From contig JAXHVO010000119.1 in NCBI GenBank assembly GCA_034189135.1, positions 1 through 38,999 of the forward strand: a DNA stretch of 38,999 nucleotides, given 5' to 3'. Shown one piece after another: positions 17,826 to 38,999 of this stretch. The notes under the pieces are model-generated. The model had not been told where the DNA came from and made no database searches. It saw nothing but the letters and a program-made list of their open reading frames with translations. The position numbers and the translations under genes are program-made. Source of the DNA: Thermodesulfobacteriota bacterium. Its GTDB lineage: Bacteria; Desulfobacterota; Desulfobacteria; Desulfobacterales; JAUWMJ01. The number at the start of each line of letters is the position of its first letter. The first letter of the stretch is position 1.

Positions 17826-17914
17826 GCCTGGGTGGCGGAACTGGTAGACGCAAGGGACTTAAAATCCCTCGGGGCTCAGTCCCTGTACGAGTTCAATTCT
17901 CGTCCCGGGCACCA
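17826..17914 (+). tRNA. tRNA-Leu (anticodon UAA)
   Basis: A complete class II tRNA: acceptor GCCTGGG/CCCGGGC with one G-U, D-arm GGCGGAACTGGTAGACGC, anticodon stem AGGGA/TCCCT with loop CTTAAAA (anticodon TAA), long variable arm CGGGGCTCAGTCCCTG, T-arm with GTTCAATTC, and an encoded CCA. The long variable arm and anticodon fix it as leucine, reading UUA/UUG. Its 3' end appears to have served as an integration site. Confidence 0.97.
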
Positions 17915-30720: not shown

Positions 30721-31293
30721 GTTAATTCGATTCCCTGTTTTAACAAATAGTTAATGCCTAAAACTCAAATCGTTTGCCAAAAAAATGGTTTTTAGCTTTT
30801 GGCGAAACAATCATATGTATTGCACAAAAATATGTGCAGTACACACATGTATGTGGACTTTAACCTACATTTCATATCCTTTATATCAATAAACATCTTT
30901 CCCAACAATATTGCGTTTATTTCACAACTAACTGTTAATATTGTGATAAAATCCAAAAACGTGAGTTGCTTGGCAAAAAACGGGTTATAAATTTTTGCCA
31001 AACAATTTAGGGATTGCACATATTCATGTGCAGTGCACATATATATGTGCAATTTTACATTCAAATAACATTCGTTTTGCCGACAAACTGCTTTCATACA
31101 ATAGCCTGGTTATCAATAACTTATTGTTTATACAGCTATATATTGCACTGTTTATTTAATATACTTTACATAAAGACAAACCTAACACTTTGGCATAAAT
31201 ATTGAAAGGAGATTCGGATAAAAACAAAATGAACAGAGTTCATAGTCAGTGACTTATCAAAAAAACAGCGATGAAATGGTTTTTGTAATGTGG
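30721..31293. promoter_or_regulatory. Duplicated control region with four 18-bp palindromes
   Basis: Between efp and the ChrB-domain gene lies AT-rich, gene-free DNA with a direct repeat of about 97 bp (about 30771-30867 and 30966-31062, offset about 195 bp). Each copy contains a TTTTG-SC-RAAACAAT box, then two 18-bp palindromes 19 bp apart: 30821-30838 and 30840-30857 in copy 1; 31015-31032 and 31034-31051 in copy 2. The last, TGCACATATATATGTGCA, is perfect; half-site consensus TGCACA/TGTGCA. A third partial box (TTTTGCCGACAAA) is near 31075. Short frames on both strands arise from the palindromes. AAAGGAG (31206-31212) lies downstream. Confidence 0.7.
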
Positions 31294-31791
31294 ATGAAAA
31301 AAATATCTGTTGTTATAATTCTATTTTTAACTGCGTCCGATCTTTATTCACAGGGTAGCGTTCATATTTATTCAACCGGATCGATCATGGAAATTGACCG
31401 ATGCGCTTCAGCCTGGCTAATTAAAAAATTCGTAGATAAGAAAGCTGTATTCAAGTTTTTTCCTGATGGGGAGATTATCGAAGTCGGAATTCCTTTTGAT
31501 ACACCTGATGCCGAGCTGTCGCGTACACATCGTCGGTCAACCTTTGAGGTTATTATGGATACGTACCAGATTGTCGATCACAGATTGGAAACATTAAAGA
31601 AAAATATTCATGATATAGAAATAAATTTCTGGGGGAAAAAGGGTTCAGCGGAATCAACAATTTTTGCCGCGGATGTAAATAAGATAATCAACCAGGCAAA
31701 GAATAATGATGATTGTCTGGAGAAGTGTTTTATCTACCTTGATAAGATGATCGAAAATAGGGATCTTTCTCAGAAGATAAAAGTGAAATAA
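31294..31791 (+). CDS. Exported ChrB-domain protein (chromate-resistance-type)
   Basis: Matches the C-terminal ChrB domain: IMEIDRCASAWLIKKFVDKK, FFPDGEIIEVGIPFDTPDAE and LSRTHRRSTFEVIMDTYQIV. ChrB proteins sense or bind chromate and regulate or assist ChrA efflux. Here the domain stands alone behind a signal peptide (MKKISVVIILFLTASDLYSQ), so it acts outside the cytoplasm. The start is uncertain: in-frame ATGs at 31276 and 31288 and a GTG at 31249 are also open, and the best Shine-Dalgarno (AAAGGAG) is too far upstream of all. No chrA is in the window; the ABC importer follows after 60 bp. Confidence 0.75.
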   Translation: MKKISVVIILFLTASDLYSQGSVHIYSTGSIMEIDRCASAWLIKKFVDKKAVFKFFPDGEIIEVGIPFDTPDAELSRTHRRSTFEVIMDTYQIVDHRLETLKKNIHDIEINFWGKKGSAESTIFAADVNKIINQAKNNDDCLEKCFIYLDKMIENRDLSQKIKVK

Positions 31792-31851: not shown

Positions 31852-32868
31852 TTGCAGAAAATAGTATTGGGGTGTGTTGTTTTAATTGTTTTGGTTGGCG
31901 GGGGACGCATTGGTTATTATGCTGATGCAAGGGAAGTGGTGGTTTTTACAGCACTGGACCAGATCTTTTCGGAACCGATCCTGCAGGATTTTGAAAAAGC
32001 AACCGGTATCACTGTCAAAGCCGTTTACGATATTGAAGCCACCAAAACCACCGGGCTGGTTAACCGGCTGATTGCCGAGAAGAAGAATCCCCAATGCGAT
32101 GTTTTCTGGAATAATGAGGTCATCAAATCGATTATACTAAAACGCAAAGGAATTATTACTCCTTATGTATCTCCGGCATCTGTAGATATTCCAATCCACT
32201 TTAAAGATAAAGATGGATACTGGACCGGCTTTGCGGCCCGCGCACGGGTTTTGGTGATAAACACCGAACTTGTTGATAATAATCAACAACCGGATTCCAT
32301 CTTCAATCTGACCGATTCCAGATGGAAGGGAAAAATTGCTATAGCAAATCCGCTGTTCGGTACAACATCCACCCATGTGGCCGCATTGTTTTCCTATTTA
32401 GGTAAAGATAAAGCCCGGCAGTATTTTGAAAATCTGAAAAAAAATCAAATCAGGATTGTCGACGGTAACTCAGTTGTCAAAGACCAGGTGGGTGCCGGGG
32501 AGTTGAAGGCCGGTTTTACGGATACGGATGATGTCAATATGGGTTTAAAATTCGGAATGCCGCTTCGACCATTATACCCGGACAAAAGAGGAATGGGAAC
32601 CCTGTTGATACCCAATACGGTGAGCTTGATCGCTAATTGCCCCAACCCTAACGAAGGAAAAGAATTAATCGATTATTTACTCAGCAAAGAGGTTGAAAAG
32701 AAGCTGGCATTTTCCCCATCGGTACAAATGCCTTTAAGGCCCGATGTTCCGACGCCAGAAAATTTTGTAAACATTGCTCAAATTAAGGCAATGGAAGTCA
32801 ATTATGAGAAGGTGGCGGATGAAATGGATGGTGCCGTCATTTTCGTGCAAAATCTGTTTATTCGATAA
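31852..32868 (+). CDS. Ferric-iron-type ABC transporter substrate-binding protein
   Basis: Periplasmic binding protein of the FbpA/AfuA class. It starts at TTG, supported by GGGAGG 5 bases upstream, and has a signal peptide (QKIVLGCVVLIVLVGGGRIG). Mature motifs: VVVFTALDQIFSEPILQDFE, NPQCDVFWNNEVIKSIILKR, GYWTGFAARARVLVINTELV, KGKIAIANPLFGTTSTHVAA and IPNTVSLIANCPNPNEGKEL. The length of 338 aa is normal. Typical FbpA paired tyrosines are not obvious, so Fe(III) is a family-level guess; another metal or an oxyanion is possible given the ChrB neighbour. Confidence 0.87.
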   Translation: MQKIVLGCVVLIVLVGGGRIGYYADAREVVVFTALDQIFSEPILQDFEKATGITVKAVYDIEATKTTGLVNRLIAEKKNPQCDVFWNNEVIKSIILKRKGIITPYVSPASVDIPIHFKDKDGYWTGFAARARVLVINTELVDNNQQPDSIFNLTDSRWKGKIAIANPLFGTTSTHVAALFSYLGKDKARQYFENLKKNQIRIVDGNSVVKDQVGAGELKAGFTDTDDVNMGLKFGMPLRPLYPDKRGMGTLLIPNTVSLIANCPNPNEGKELIDYLLSKEVEKKLAFSPSVQMPLRPDVPTPENFVNIAQIKAMEVNYEKVADEMDGAVIFVQNLFIR

Positions 32869-32940
32869 AACCCGTTACGAAAGGACATCGCCATACAACC
32901 CAAACCCATTACATATTTATCGATTTTTCTATTTACGGCT

Positions 32941-34488
32941 GTGGCTATATTGCCCATCGGGCTGATGTTTGCTCATTCCATCCATATTGATGGAGAATTG
33001 TCCTTGGAACATTATCGGACCGTATTTACGGATATGAGACAATTGACTCTGCTTTTAAAAACCTTGGTGCTGGCATCAGGTGTCACTATATTTTGCCTGA
33101 TTATAGGAGTATCGTTTGCGTTTTTACTGGCGCGTACCGATGTATATGGGAGAAGAATCTGGCAATGGTTATACCTCCTGCCGTTATGTATTCCGCCTTA
33201 CCTTCATGCTGTAACCTGGATCTGTCTCCTGAAGGAAAAAGGTTTAGTCAACACATTTCTGATAAAATGGTTTCATCTTAAAGCACCTTTAATCGATATT
33301 TACGGCATTAGCGGGTCTATGGTTGTGTTAACTTTTTCCTATTTTCCCTTTATCGTTTTGTTAACCCTTTCCGGTTTCCATACCATGGACCAGCGGATGG
33401 AAGACGCTGCCCGGCTGAATTACCGGCCATTTGGCGTGATGAAAAAAGTAACGCTTCCCTTGATCAGTCCGTATATTTTTTCCGGGGCCGTATTTGTTTT
33501 CATCTTCTCCTTGTTTAACTATGGCGTTCCGGCCCTGTTGCGGGTGCACACTTATCCGGTGGAGATATTTGCCCGGTTTAGTGCTTTTTATAATGAAGGC
33601 GGGGCCACGGCTCAATCTTTTCCGATAGCGGTGATTGCCCTGATCCTGATTACATTTCAGCGATATTATATGGGGTCACGCTCTTATGTTACCATAAACA
33701 CGGAAAGCAAAGGCGCTTCAATTTTTTACCTGAACAGATACCGGGCGGTTGCCGGCTTGTTTATTTTTGTGATTATACTGTTTTCAGTGGTGTTACCGCT
33801 GGTCATTCTATCGATGCAAGCCGGATCATTCAAAAGCTATCAGGTGGCTTTCAGCAAATCGTCAAGGGAAATCATCACCACTGTTTCTCTTTCCGTAGTA
33901 GCTGCTACGGCAATGATCTGCCTGGCTTATTTTCTTTCACATCCTATTGAGGATAGACAGGTTAAGGGGCATACTTTGCTGGATTATTTAACTTTTGCTC
34001 CTTTTGCTTTTCCGGCCACCGCACTTGGTATCGGGATGATCCGTTTTTGGAATCGACCGCTGACGGAAGCGATTTACAATAGTTCGCTTATCGTTGTGCT
34101 TGCCTATATCGCCCGCTTTATTCCTTTTTCTATACGTACCTTAAATTCAAATTTAAAACAGATCAGTACGAGCGTAATAGAAGCCGCGGTATTATGTGAA
34201 AAATCCTGGTTTAAAAGAACGGTGAAGATTCAACTGCCCCTTTCACTTAAAGGGGTGGCAGCCGGTTGGGTGATCGCTTTTATTTTATGTACGGGTGAGT
34301 TAGGCGCCACACTTTTGGTGATACCACCCGGTAACGGTTCAATTTCTCTAAAAATTTATACCCTGATGCATTATGGGGCCAATAAGATTGTGGCGGCTTT
34401 GGCATTGATAGTAATCGGAATCAATTTACTAATATCCTTTACAGTTCTTTCAAGCATGCGCTTTGGCTGGCGAAGGCAGCAGATTTAG
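32941..34488 (+). CDS. ABC transporter permease, FbpB-type double-domain
   Basis: Inner-membrane permease with two fused BPD_transp_1 units, about 12 helices. Each half carries the EAA-type cytoplasmic loop: MEDAARLNYRPFGVMKKVTL (first) and VIEAAVLCEKSWFKRTVKIQ (second). Fusion of both units in one chain is typical for Fe(III) importers. The GTG start used here cuts into the first helix; the frame is open back to the preceding stop, and AAAGGA sits 7 bases before an ATA at 32893 that would add MQPKPITYLSIFLFTA (with initiator Met) and complete that helix. The true start is therefore probably upstream and non-canonical. Confidence 0.88.
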   Translation: MAILPIGLMFAHSIHIDGELSLEHYRTVFTDMRQLTLLLKTLVLASGVTIFCLIIGVSFAFLLARTDVYGRRIWQWLYLLPLCIPPYLHAVTWICLLKEKGLVNTFLIKWFHLKAPLIDIYGISGSMVVLTFSYFPFIVLLTLSGFHTMDQRMEDAARLNYRPFGVMKKVTLPLISPYIFSGAVFVFIFSLFNYGVPALLRVHTYPVEIFARFSAFYNEGGATAQSFPIAVIALILITFQRYYMGSRSYVTINTESKGASIFYLNRYRAVAGLFIFVIILFSVVLPLVILSMQAGSFKSYQVAFSKSSREIITTVSLSVVAATAMICLAYFLSHPIEDRQVKGHTLLDYLTFAPFAFPATALGIGMIRFWNRPLTEAIYNSSLIVVLAYIARFIPFSIRTLNSNLKQISTSVIEAAVLCEKSWFKRTVKIQLPLSLKGVAAGWVIAFILCTGELGATLLVIPPGNGSISLKIYTLMHYGANKIVAALALIVIGINLLISFTVLSSMRFGWRRQQI

Positions 34489-34506: not shown

Positions 34507-35250
34507 ATGATTGAACTTTGCAGCATCGATCACAGTTACGGAAAAAAAAGGGTCTTAAATGGCTTAAACCTGAAGGTTGATTCCGGAGAATGTCTGGCTC
34601 TTTTAGGCCCTTCGGGATGTGGCAAAACAACTGCATTGCGTTTAATTGCCGGCCTGGAAAGACCCGAAAGGGGAGAAATCCGAATCAACGAGCGCCTGGT
34701 CAGTTCTCCAAGAAAGCTGATTCCGCCATATAATCGTTCGATCAGCATGGTATTCCAGGACCTGGCCTTGTGGCCGCATATGAATGTGGAGAAACACATC
34801 GATTTTGCCCTGGTGTCGCATATTAAAAGCAACAAAATAAAATCGGAAAAAACAAAAAAAATATTACACTTGGTACACCTTGAAAAGCACTCCGAAAGTT
34901 ATCCCCACCAGCTATCCGGCGGGGAAAAACAACGTCTCGCACTGGCCAGGGCGCTGGTAAATGAGCCGAAAATATTACTTCTGGATGAGCCTTTCTCTGG
35001 GCTGGATACCGATTTAAGAAATGAAATGCTTCATCAAACAAAAAGAATTATCAACAAAATGAACATGACTACCATTTATGTCACCCATGATGAAAGAGAA
35101 GCGGTTTTTATAGCCGATAGAATCATGCTGATAAAAAGCGGCAAGATCAATCAAATAAAAATTACGAATAAAAAAATAATCTGTTTGAATAATAAAATAC
35201 ATAACAGCCAGACAAGGGAAAGAGAAAATGAAAAGAGAATTCAGCATTAA
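34507..35250 (+). CDS. ABC transporter ATP-binding protein, FbpC/PotA-like
   Basis: Energises the permease. Walker A GPSGCGKTT (34-42), Q-loop in SMVFQDLALWPHM, signature LSGGEKQRLALARAL, Walker B ILLLDEPFSGLD and switch His in TIYVTHDEREAVF are all intact. At 247 aa it is shorter than FbpC/PotA: after the nucleotide-binding domain only about 30 basic residues remain, so the usual C-terminal regulatory (TOBE-like) domain is missing. The gene starts 18 bp after the permease, and its last 23 bp overlap the FlgD-Ig-like gene. Confidence 0.93.
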   Translation: MIELCSIDHSYGKKRVLNGLNLKVDSGECLALLGPSGCGKTTALRLIAGLERPERGEIRINERLVSSPRKLIPPYNRSISMVFQDLALWPHMNVEKHIDFALVSHIKSNKIKSEKTKKILHLVHLEKHSESYPHQLSGGEKQRLALARALVNEPKILLLDEPFSGLDTDLRNEMLHQTKRIINKMNMTTIYVTHDEREAVFIADRIMLIKSGKINQIKITNKKIICLNNKIHNSQTRERENEKRIQH

Positions 35251-36337
35251 ACGGATATCCGGTTTGAATTTCATGCTCCTGGTTTCGATTTTACTTGTTT
35301 TTTCACTGCCGCCTGCCCACGCAGGTCGATTGCTGCATGCGGTCCGTATTGAGCCACAAAAAATTGATGTCTTTAAAAACGAAACAGTACAGATTTCCTG
35401 GCACCAGTCAGAAGAAGGCAATCTGGACGTTTTTATTTGTAATTTGGATGGAATAATAGTCCGAACATTTTACCACCGGGAAGATTTAAAAAGCGGCAGT
35501 TATATCGTAGCCTGGGATGGCCGCGATACTTCGGGAAGATTATGTCCCAATGGGATATACATACCCATTATAAAAATCAGATCAAAAAGATGGGGCCGTG
35601 AGCTTTATAATCCCACCGACTCTCCCTGGGGAGAGGATCGCACCATAAAAGATTTGAATTATGATTTCAAGAGCCGGACCATCAATTATACCCTAGCCAA
35701 ACCGATGCTGTGCAAAATGAGAGTCGGACTAAAAGAAGGGGGGCCTTGTTATAAAACTATATTCGAATGGCAGCCGCATGAGGCGGGATATCATGAAAAA
35801 CAATGGGACGGGAAGGATTTAAACGGTATTGTCGAGGTATGGAAAAAAGATAAATTTCAGATTGTACTCGATGGGTTTTCAGTACCCAAAGAGGCCATAT
35901 TCCTTGAAGGGTCTGAAAATCCGTCCCACCGGTTTAAAGGAATTGAAAAAAGATTTTCCCTTAATCCGCCGCGGGGGGAAAAAATTATGGTCCATGCGCT
36001 GCATAAAAGAGAGTTTTGCCATGACATACCGATAAAAGTAGATTTGATTGGCACCCGGGGAACCATAAAAGGCAGCCCGATCATTGGTGGTACTGCCGAT
36101 ATCAAAGTGATGACTGCATATAAAAGCGATTTGGAGCATATCATACGGGAAAGATTTGAACTCTATCAGTTTATGGATGGAAATTTTGTATATGAAGCTC
36201 CCCAAAAAACACTGCCTGTTATTATGAAACTAAATACGAACAAGTTTACCAACGGACTCCATATATTCACGATTAATCTAAGAACCTCGGAAGATCATGT
36301 GGGAACCTATTCAATGAAAGTATATATCAAGAACTGA
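35228..36337 (+). CDS. Exported protein with FlgD-type Ig domains
   Basis: A 369-aa secreted protein. Signal peptide (FMLLVSILLVFSLPPAHAG). The first FlgD_ig module (about 40-120) has FKNETVQISWHQSE, GSYIVAWDGRDTSGRLCPNG and IYIPIIKIRS. A second begins about 150 with FEWQPHEAGYHEKQWDGKDL. The C-terminal third has beta-rich repeats without a named domain. Such modules occur in extracellular and cell-surface assemblies, not only in flagellar hooks. It overlaps the ABC ATPase gene by 23 bp, so translation may be coupled, although a functional link to import is not obvious. The YD-repeat gene follows 39 bp later. Confidence 0.72.
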   Translation: MKREFSIKRISGLNFMLLVSILLVFSLPPAHAGRLLHAVRIEPQKIDVFKNETVQISWHQSEEGNLDVFICNLDGIIVRTFYHREDLKSGSYIVAWDGRDTSGRLCPNGIYIPIIKIRSKRWGRELYNPTDSPWGEDRTIKDLNYDFKSRTINYTLAKPMLCKMRVGLKEGGPCYKTIFEWQPHEAGYHEKQWDGKDLNGIVEVWKKDKFQIVLDGFSVPKEAIFLEGSENPSHRFKGIEKRFSLNPPRGEKIMVHALHKREFCHDIPIKVDLIGTRGTIKGSPIIGGTADIKVMTAYKSDLEHIIRERFELYQFMDGNFVYEAPQKTLPVIMKLNTNKFTNGLHIFTINLRTSEDHVGTYSMKVYIKN

Positions 36338-36376: not shown

Positions 36377-36790
36377 ATGTCCACCAGGCTGATTGAATAT
36401 AAAAGGTTGATGACTGCAGTCATTTTTATTTTAGGTATCGGCATCAGCGCCTATGCTCAGGAGATTGTTAATTATTCCTATGATGATATGAACCGTTTGG
36501 AAAGAGCCGTTTATGCAGATGGTTCCGTGGTTGATTATACCTATGATTTAATGGGAAATCGCTTCACTAAAAACATTGCGGTAAACGGCTCCCCTGCCAA
36601 CAATACACCCAACATGCCCGCGCAGCCGTCACCGGCCGATGCAGTAACGAACGTCGATCCGTTAAGTGTGTCAATCTCATGGAACGGCAGTGACCCGGAT
36701 GTCGGGGATGAGCTGTTACCTCATCTGACCCTGTATTGTATGCCAGGACACGATCCACTGAAGTGCAAATCGAACCACTTGATATTTTAA
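36377..36790 (+). CDS. N-terminal part of a YD-repeat / Ig-like surface protein, ended by a frameshift
   Basis: Starts with AAGGGGG 7 bases before ATG and a signal peptide (LMTAVIFILGIGISAYAQ). One RHS/YD unit follows: VNYSYDDMNRLERAVYADGS and VVDYTYDLMGNRF. After a Pro-rich linker an Fn3/Ig-like domain starts (SVSISWNGSDPDVGDE), but the frame ends after 28 more, less domain-like, residues. The domain resumes in the -1 frame, as described in the next entry. Loss of one base near 36753-36760 (after the codon for the Asp-Pro of GHDP) explains the break. Single-YD plus Ig plus beta-helix proteins are typical of secreted proteins in this group. Confidence 0.7.
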   Translation: MSTRLIEYKRLMTAVIFILGIGISAYAQEIVNYSYDDMNRLERAVYADGSVVDYTYDLMGNRFTKNIAVNGSPANNTPNMPAQPSPADAVTNVDPLSVSISWNGSDPDVGDELLPHLTLYCMPGHDPLKCKSNHLIF

Positions 36791-38999
36791 AAACCTATTT
36801 CTGGAAAATCGTTGTCAAGGATTCTCGCGGAGGCATGACAGCAGGACCGGTCTGGAGCTTTACGACGATTAATAATCCACCCAACGCACCGGTATATCAA
36901 CTGCCGCATCATTCAGGCGAAATCGTACCGGAAAATGTACGCTTAACCTGGGCAGAAGCAACAGACCCCAATCCGGGCGATACTATCAGCGGTTATGATA
37001 TTTATTTCGGGACCACATCCAGCCCACCGCTTGCAGCAAGTAATCACAATGACACCCATTATTCGGCCGGAAATTTGAATCCGGATACCACCTATTTTTG
37101 GAAAATTGTCGCCAGAGACAATCATGACGCCCAAAGCCCAGGCAGTCCGCTATGGTCTTTTAAAACCTATGACCATGCACCGGTGGTTCTTTCCAACCCC
37201 ACCTATTCATCCGATACCACCCTGACTAAAAATGGTGGACCGTATATTGTTCAGGGTTCGATGACGATAGATCTCGGGGTTGTGTTAACCATTGAACCCG
37301 GTACAATTTTCAAATTTGAAAACGGCGCAACACTGAAAGTAAACGGGACGCTGGCTGCTCAAGGCAATGCAGGAAATCAAATCATTTTTACTTCCTGTAA
37401 GGATGATCGTTACGGGGGCGATACGAATGGCGACGGGAATGCGTCCGCGCCGGATCGGGGTGACTGGGGAGGCATTTCGGTAACCATCGGACCCAGCAGT
37501 GGAGCAGTGACCTTAAAATATTGCCGTATCGAATTTGCAACCACCGGGATTTCGGTTGCTGTTGACGGCAATAGTGCGGCATTGACTATTACCGAAAATG
37601 TCATCCGGAACCACTTGGAAGACGGGATATTTGTTGACGGGCGCAATGGTGCATCCATCAGCGCAGCTCTAAGCAATAATCAGGTTGAGGAAAACGGCGG
37701 AAACGGCATTCATTTTTACACCACAGATCAGTCTTCCCAGCTATCCGGACAAATTTCAGCGTCCGTCATTTCTCAAAATGAAGGATATGGCATCTATGTG
37801 CATACCTATAGCAAGGCTTTATGTGATCTGGATATAATCGGCAACACCATCGGTCACAATCAGGACAGTGGTATTTACGCTTTTTCTCATTACGCTTATC
37901 AATACACAACATTATTGACCATTAAGAATAATACCATTGATGAAAGTGGAACCGGCATTTACTGTTATGCGGCATTAAGCGAAATGAGCGCCGATATTAT
38001 CGGGAATGTGTGCCGTAACGGAAACGACGGAATTAAATGCATTGGCTATTCCGGAGCGAGGCCTTTATATGCTTTGATTACTGATAATGAAGTTTATGCG
38101 AACAGCAATATCGGGATTTATTGTTATTCTCGCAGTGCCAAGCTCTATCCCGAGATTCGCCAAAATAAAGTATATAACAATCAAAACGGCGGGGTACATT
38201 GTTTAAGATACGATGAAGGAGTTAATCATATCATAGAACCGGTCATAACCTTGAATGAAGTCTATGAAAATGAAGGTTATGGGATATTTTGTCATACCAG
38301 TGCTGAGGCGATTTTGCTTTATAATGAAGTCCGCAGCAATTTAAGCACAGGCGTGTATATCAAAGACAATGATGTCTCTGTTATCCATTTTAACAATATG
38401 TATAATAATGCCGGTAGCAGTGAAATGGAAAATGGTAATACCACGGCGGTGAATGCTCGCTTTAATTATTGGGGGAGTTATGGGACCTATGAAATTGAAA
38501 GCGGAAACAACCCCAAAAATATTTCCCGGATTTATGATATCTACGATGATATAGAAAGAGGTACTGCTTACTATATGCCATCATTACCAAGCATTTTAGC
38601 CTTGCCATCAACGCATGTATCAAAGATCACATCGCCCTTGACTGATCATGAGCAGAAATCCTCCGTGGTCAATATTAAAGGTATCGCCGTATCGCCCAAC
38701 GGGGTGGATTTTGTGGAAGTCAGCACGGACAACGGAATGACCTGGACCACGGCAGACGGTGCGGAAAGCTGGAATATCGAGCTAACCTTTCCGGGTGACG
38801 GAACCTATACGGTTCTTTCCCGCGTGACCGACAAGCTCAGTCAGGTGGAAACACCGGGAAGCGGGGTAACCTTTACTGTTAACAGCAGCCTGCCGACCAC
38901 CAAAGGAACGCTGACCGGTAACGAGACCTGGTCCGGCGAGGTGGCCATTACCGGGGATGTGATTGTTCCCCAGGGAGTCACCCTGACCATCGATCCGGG
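36712..38999 (+). CDS. C-terminal continuation: Fn3/Ig-like repeats and right-handed beta-helix, open at the window edge
   Basis: A stop-free frame from 36712 to the last base (762 codons), the reading-frame continuation of the YD protein. Segments: end of an Ig/Fn3-like unit (TYFWKIVVKDSRGGMTAGP then VWSFTT), a complete second one (VRLTWAEATDPNPGDTISGY, PDTTYFWKIVARD, LWSFKTYD), then a long parallel beta-helix (about 37200-38480) with repeated xxNxI/V...GIYxY turns such as NVIRNHLEDGIFVDG, SQNEGYGIYV and NEVYENEGYGIFC. A further Ig-like unit (VEVSTDNGMTWTTADG) and another LTGNETWSG helix cap follow. Beta-helix folds often bind or cleave polysaccharide; no catalytic signature seen. No own start codon: it depends on the frame upstream. 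Confidence 0.75.

Follow-up and report, generated by a model that had tools for sequence, protein, structure and literature searches.

At sigma-54 enhancers, activator and polymerase are brought together by DNA looping. In the NtrC (NR-I) system, exemplified by glnAp2, paired TGCAC palindromes precede a -24/-12 promoter, the consensus being a 17-bp site (GCAC-N7-GTGC), and the activator has a REC-AAA+-Fis-HTH architecture with an RNTL recognition helix. Quorum sensing by peptides is a textbook trait of Gram-positive bacteria, and sensor kinases assisted by a solute-binding protein (SBP) are represented by LuxP-LuxQ, ChvE-VirA and TorT-TorS.

Here we analysed a 38,999-nt stretch (the window, contig C119) from the draft genome of a Thermodesulfobacteriota bacterium (4.6 Mb, 140 contigs, 95.5% complete). 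The enhancer architecture found in it is of a known kind. With NtrC/glnAp2 it shares paired palindromic TGCAC half-sites, a -24/-12 promoter and a candidate activator of REC-AAA+-Fis-HTH type with an RNTL helix. It departs from NtrC in that its sites are 18 bp long, with 8 rather than 7 bases between TGCAC and GTGCA, its regulon consists of exported proteins and its activator scores 439 against a cut-off of 559. The main-text parts of two studies on Desulfovibrio vulgaris describe a sigma-54 regulome with many bacterial enhancer-binding proteins (bEBPs), small regulons, promoters mostly near enhancers (UAS) and common extracellular functions (PMC4641369, PMC3333781). As portrayed there, that regulome resembles the present one in phylum and in all of these features, while neither the TGCACA-N6-TGTGCA motif nor a peptide-SBP-kinase module appears in those main-text parts (PMC4641369, PMC3333781).

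Architecture of the enhancer region

The DNA upstream of the ChrB_C gene carries four 18-bp palindromes in two pairs with starts 19 bp apart (Table 1), as the preliminary description had stated; three match TGCACA-N6-TGTGCA exactly, one has two mismatches, and the pairs lie 194 bp from each other. The palindrome at 31034-31051, previously singled out as perfect, is so over its full length. Site 2 keeps the 19-bp distance to site 1 that is found at other pairs of the C22 regulator clade (see below). Under a first-order Markov model, 0.007 exact sites would be expected in the 39-kb window, compared with the three observed.

Both pairs belong to an imperfect direct duplication (local alignment score 117, whereas none of 300 shuffles exceeded 53). 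The repeat had been described as about 97 bp long at an offset of about 195 bp; the offset is upheld by two boxes 195 bp apart, whereas the alignment extends over ~188 bp at weaker similarity. The stem-loop-like inverted repeats that contain these boxes are absent from the other enhancer loci read, and a literature search on a TunR/tungstate regulator for the TTTTGGC boxes gave no relevant match. An Rfam scan of the window matched only a cobalamin riboswitch (RF00174, 14818-15024, minus strand) and a tRNA (17826-17911).

Table 1. Features of the window and of associated loci in the source genome. Positions refer to the window unless a contig is named.
Feature	Position	Strand	Details
Duplication copy 1	~30753-30940	.	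carries an enhancer pair; local alignment to copy 2
Box of copy 1	30797-30811	.	TTTTGGCGAAACAAT; right arm of inverted repeat 30773-30811 (TTTGCCAA...TTTTGGCGAAACAAT)
UAS site 1	30821-30838	.	TGCACAAAAATATGTGCA; exact match to TGCACA-N6-TGTGCA
UAS site 2	30840-30857	.	TACACACATGTATGTGGA; 2 mismatches to TGCACA-N6-TGTGCA
Duplication copy 2	~30950-31132	.	promoter-side; local alignment to copy 1
Box of copy 2	30992-31006	.	TTTTTGCCAAACAAT; right arm of inverted repeat 30966-31006 (TTGGCAAAAA...TTTTTGCCAAACAAT)
UAS site 3	31015-31032	.	TGCACATATTCATGTGCA; exact match to TGCACA-N6-TGTGCA
UAS site 4	31034-31051	.	TGCACATATATATGTGCA; exact match; palindrome perfect over all 18 bp
IHF-consensus site	31111-31123	+	TATCAATAACTTA; between enhancer and promoter
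Predicted sigma-54 promoter	31191-31206	+	TGGCATAAATATTGAA; score 0.88; -24 GG, -12 GA
Exported ChrB_C-only protein	31294-31791	+	PF09828, E=2e-27; signal peptide MKKISVVIILFLTASDLYSQG; ORF opens 31249; first operon gene
ABC solute-binding protein	31852-32868	+	SBP_bac_6/8 type
ABC permease	32896-34488	+	two BPD_transp_1 stretches
ABC ATPase	34507-35250	+
Exported protein with FlgD-Ig-like domain	35228-36337	+	E=4e-7
Short exported protein with RHS/YD repeats	36377-36790	+	PF05593
Large fn3/beta-helix exoprotein	36736-38999	+	PF13229, PF05048; runs off contig end
Candidate regulator, first clade	C22:4626-6020		receiver (REC), Sigma54_activat/AAA+, Fis-type HTH
Predicted exported peptide, ~30 aa	C22:4222-4311 (L016)	minus	MKKLMVQLFIIGVVIATYALPVLACGGGGP; signal-peptide-like, ending YALPVLA-CGGGGP
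Other target	C22		hybrid kinase beside regulator
Other target	C85		1373-aa cadherin/PKD/HINT protein
Other target	C128 (L019 10265-19146)		1964-aa CarboxypepD/FG-GAP protein, then SpvB-like/TcdB-middle-region-like protein

Sigma-54 promoters behind the paired sites

Elements of the -24/-12 type were scored around 112 pair places (score ≥0.8, within 500 bp), those pointing toward the pair serving as a control within the same DNA. An element pointing away from the pair was present at 99 of the 112 places, as against 14 with one pointing toward it, and at a score of ≥0.9 the counts were 59 and 1. Most elements sit 50-190 bp from the pair; in the window promoter, 171 bp separate the -12 base from the middle of the second pair, and the GA in place of GC at -12 recurs in 33 of 110 promoters of the set. 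Of 107 promoters, 16 have a consensus IHF site in the interval from pair to promoter, compared with 6 on the other side, a mild enrichment that gives weak backing to the IHF site of the window. The source genome encodes sigma-54 as well as bEBPs. Because sigma-54 promoters so regularly follow the pairs and point away from them, the paired palindromes are, judged from sequence, almost certainly enhancers of NtrC-family sigma-54 activators. The looping suggested in the preliminary description fits this enhancer type, as looping between activator and polymerase; DNA looping between the two window pairs is possible.

Genomic distribution and target genes

Across the source genome, 12 exact sites were found (0 for a reversed control), confined to five places: C22, C85 (three), C111 (two), the window (three) and C128 (three). 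A search of 84,980 species genomes, in which two exact palindromes had to be separated by 1-4 bp, recovered the pair in about 104 genome stretches, nearly all from Desulfobacterota, where about 0.004 would be expected by chance according to our own arithmetic (24 fixed bases, 257 Gb). The proposal to search related genomes for the paired motif and to list the genes behind it proved workable, and the earlier view of operators of one dimeric regulator, paired at a conserved spacing, is supported. Paired sites also occur in a Phascolarctobacterium MAG and a Tectomicrobia MAG (L045 and L071), where sigma-54 promoter and regulator are absent from the fetched stretch. The C111 pair (L018, 5118-5155) is accompanied by a sigma-54-like element; a gene or tiny ORF was sought there in both directions and none was found, and this pair perhaps serves a small RNA.

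Behind the window promoter stands the operon listed in Table 1, with no tiny peptide ORF directly behind the promoter. Its first product was rejected as a ChrB-type chromate regulator: such regulators are cytosolic and have an N-terminal regulatory domain, whereas in this protein only ChrB_C was found, with a signal peptide at the N-terminus. Elsewhere the paired site precedes unrelated genes, both in the source genome and in other genomes; targets in relatives include a DUF6531/RHS protein, a 14-repeat FG-GAP protein and orthologs of the paired C128 proteins. Giant secreted proteins are the common theme of the regulon, in agreement with the part of PMC3162934 that places the bacterial exterior under sigma-54 control.

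ChrB-like orthologs in six other relatives have no paired site. In G001, a congener, a different gene stands behind efp, again without the site. The ChrB/ABC operon is therefore a lineage-specific target, occurring under this enhancer in the source genome only among the genomes searched, and co-conservation of ChrB with the motif was rejected. Orthologous ChrB/ABC operons lacking the motif had been named in advance as evidence for a repeat element instead of an operator; by that criterion the six orthologs rule out an operator specific to ChrB, but do not bear against an operator in the wider sense.

Candidate regulator

Roughly one in three pair loci contains a bEBP gene, and these bEBPs fall into two clades. 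The first is represented in the source genome by the C22 regulator (Table 1), orthologs of which occur in 8 of 58 relatives at 650-1015 bits, the next class reaching at most 427. Although the source genome encodes more than 30 bEBPs, the C22 regulator is the only one with an HRNTL recognition helix among the C-termini read. In G001, G002, G004 and G020, pairs with an offset of 19-20 bp adjoin the regulator gene, and the window offset is 19. On these sequence criteria, the window sites are very probably targets of the C22 NtrC-family response regulator. It was rejected as an NtrC (NR-I) equivalog (438.8 bits, below the curated TIGR01818 cut-off of 558.6), as PEP-CTERM PrsR (418.7, below the TIGR02915 cut-off of 502.6) and as AtoC, where its score likewise falls below the cut-off.

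Members of the second clade (~450 aa) accompany pairs with an offset of 20-22 bp and the same half-site; none was found in the source genome, a 95.5% complete draft, in which the C22 regulator is their best match. As the half-site is common to both clades, it is not sufficient by itself to identify the regulator in other genomes. Its Desulfobacterales loci are L034, L077, L081, L083, L086, L101, L102, L111, L115, L122 and L126; at second-clade loci the sigma-54 promoter is directed at the clade's own bEBP gene, and neither peptide nor SBP was seen.

A further variation is offered by the more distant family f79. Where the helix reads SRNY, SRNH or SRIY instead of HRNTL, the corresponding position ~200 bp upstream of the promoter is taken by an AATTG-type palindrome, whereas members with RNTL retain a degenerate TGCC...TGTGCA site. 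Recognition helix and operator thus change together within one sigma-54 activator family.

Peptide, binding protein and kinase module

Alignment of the promoter regions beside the regulator gene brought out a tiny ORF for a predicted exported peptide (Table 1). At module loci this ORF has a Shine-Dalgarno site and a terminator and lies directly behind the sigma-54 promoter; genes for an SBP_bac_5 protein and for a membrane kinase come next. On C22 the module comprises the regulator, an orphan SBP_bac_5 (OppA-family) protein of the peptide-binding class, a HAMP/HisKA membrane kinase and the peptide; it was found again in at least 10 further genomes.

The peptides have a conserved ending, ...YALPVLA-XGG(G/A)GP, with ...LPVLASGGAGP, ...TTVLAYGGAGP and ...LPVLATGGGGP in relatives and ...LPVLACGGGGR in Desulfoferrobacter suflitae; further endings are GGGGN, CGGGGN, CGGGGD, QGGGGA, EGGGW, EGGGY and TGGGW. 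In a Nitrospinota MAG (L074), a peptide ending ...AYAAGGDGGE occurs with UAS pair, promoter, SBP, kinase and regulator. This MAG and a Methylomirabilota MAG (L039), both from outside Desulfobacterota, each have a related regulator with paired sites and also a very small ORF for a Gly-rich exported product, which in the Methylomirabilota MAG is cut by the contig end. The same module recurs at the f79 loci L251-L256, with peptides ending EGGGW/EGGGY and an AATTG-type operator where the helix differs. Two more peptide genes, ending SGGGGPW and GGGGGPW, lie away from the module in G041 (C171; L279, L280), and some genomes hold several copies, partly in tandem.

Pairwise dN of the peptide gene is 0.015-0.38, much below dS, which is mostly ~1 or above and saturated in several pairs, and differences at the three codon positions number 317, 116 and 687. 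Because of both patterns, the tiny ORF is, on coding-sequence evidence, a real gene under purifying selection. The peptide (E<1e-4) occurs in exactly the 8 regulator-bearing genomes of the 58 and in 0 of the 50 others, a co-occurrence of ~5e-10 by our own arithmetic, which ignores kinship. It matched no Pfam or NCBIfam family.

By profile, the SBP matches DppA, OppA and the enterococcal pheromone receptor PrgZ (1.5e-55), and its sequence assigns it to the SBP_bac_5 family; the AlphaFold model has a mean pLDDT of 64.6. No transport permease lies beside it in the loci examined. The peptide gene has a UAS pair and a sigma-54 promoter in G001, G002, G004, G020 and G022, whereas in the source genome its enhancer is degraded to the half-site TTGCACATA. 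Because of this loss, positive feedback in the source genome may be weak, or may come from the site at C22:6277.

Discussion

The explanation that best combines these observations, and a probable one, joins the window enhancers, the C22 regulator and a peptide-signalling circuit; at the level of sequence it is anchored in the sites, the promoters, the module, the coding selection on the peptide and the co-occurrence. In such a circuit, each 18-bp palindrome would be occupied by a dimer of the phosphorylated activator, and dimers on adjacent sites, with their 19-bp spacing, would join to form an AAA+ oligomer. By DNA looping, with an IHF-like site in between, the oligomer would contact sigma-54 polymerase at the window promoter, activating the operon for the ChrB_C protein, the ABC transporter and the FlgD-Ig and RHS/beta-helix exoproteins. 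The peptide would be exported, trimmed and then bound by the solute-binding protein, which would trigger the kinase; the kinase would phosphorylate the activator, and the activator would drive both the peptide gene, as positive feedback, and the large secreted proteins. The response may be density-dependent.

We lean towards the exported peptide being the signal of this regulon. That it acts as a pheromone in Desulfobacterota and at least one Nitrospinota MAG, through an OppA-like protein and a membrane kinase, on sigma-54 enhancers of giant RHS/adhesin-like secreted proteins seems to us slightly better than an even proposition. In the same joint reading, and to the same degree, the pheromone may be a Gly-rich peptide of ~5-6 residues released by signal peptidase (for instance CGGGGP, SGGAGP, TGGGGP, CGGGGN or EGGGW); alternatively, it may be an extended form that takes in the conserved YALPVLA. 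A short exported peptide from a signal-peptide-like precursor and an SBP_bac_5-family binding protein recall PrgZ/cCF10 and RRNPP pheromone systems; unlike those Gram-positive systems, the SBP here has no adjacent permease in the loci examined, is paired with a kinase and a sigma-54 activator, and belongs to diderm bacteria. The proposed presentation of a ligand to a kinase by a periplasmic binding protein is also a feature of LuxP-LuxQ, ChvE-VirA and TorT-TorS, from which the module differs in its family 5 SBP, proposed peptide ligand and sigma-54 output. PEP-CTERM PrsK/PrsR likewise places a sigma-54 response regulator over exported proteins, but the C22 regulator stays under the PrsR cut-off (419 versus 503).

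It is possible, though we regard it as the less probable reading, that the C22 activator does use the sites as its UAS but has a signal other than the exported peptide. SBP and kinase would then sense a nutrient or cell-wall peptide, while the product of ~30 aa would be a secreted effector, a membrane peptide or a by-product of a regulatory RNA. Such a role would accord with the many ligands bound in solved SBP_bac_5 structures (dipeptides, heme, nickel), with the lack of a Pfam/NCBIfam family for the peptide and with the degraded enhancer at the source genome's own peptide promoter. It accounts poorly for the joint retention of peptide, SBP, kinase and regulator across families and in the Nitrospinota MAG, the restriction of the peptide to regulator-bearing genomes among the 58, the purifying selection on its coding sequence and the tandem amplification of its gene in some genomes.

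Binding of the window sites by a bEBP of the source genome other than C22 is improbable. The genome offers more than 30 such proteins, the second clade uses the same half-site elsewhere at a 20-22 bp offset, and a gene may be missing from a 95.5% complete draft; against this, the second clade is absent here, its protein finds its best match in C22, and HRNTL occurs in none of the other C-termini read.

The metal- or oxyanion-responsive local regulator envisaged in the preliminary description, with an operator dedicated to the ChrB/ABC operon, drew on the ChrB_C domain and the ABC transporter downstream. This reading is very improbable and largely refuted: unrelated genes stand behind the same sites elsewhere in the genome, ChrB-like orthologs lack the sites, the ChrB protein is a C-terminal domain with a signal peptide only, almost all of the sites have a sigma-54 promoter downstream, and the candidate NtrC-family regulator is on another contig. 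A dispersed REP/MITE-like element with no regulatory role, suggested by palindromic sequences in several copies per genome, is scarcely credible, as copies share half-sites and an A/T-rich centre but hardly any flanking sequence and keep a fixed orientation and distance range upstream of sigma-54 promoters.

As for the favoured peptide-signalling circuit, no paper matched the literal motif, and a review on quorum sensing in sulfate reducers (PMC8586430) leaves peptides unmentioned. The peptide-SBP-kinase-sigma-54 circuit is undescribed for sulfate-reducer relatives in the literature searched, mostly main texts outside subscription journals; in sulfate-reducer-type bacteria it looks new, and an earlier description is possible.

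The palindrome is a usable tag that names a regulon, points to its regulator and yields testable peptide sequences, among them a candidate peptide available in a named species, Desulfoferrobacter suflitae, whose strain DRH4 has SBP, kinase, peptide and UAS together in one module (L029). Family f79 adds an example of joint change in recognition helix and operator in one sigma-54 activator family. If the pheromone reading is true, these systems would constitute a peptide quorum-sensing class of diderm bacteria.
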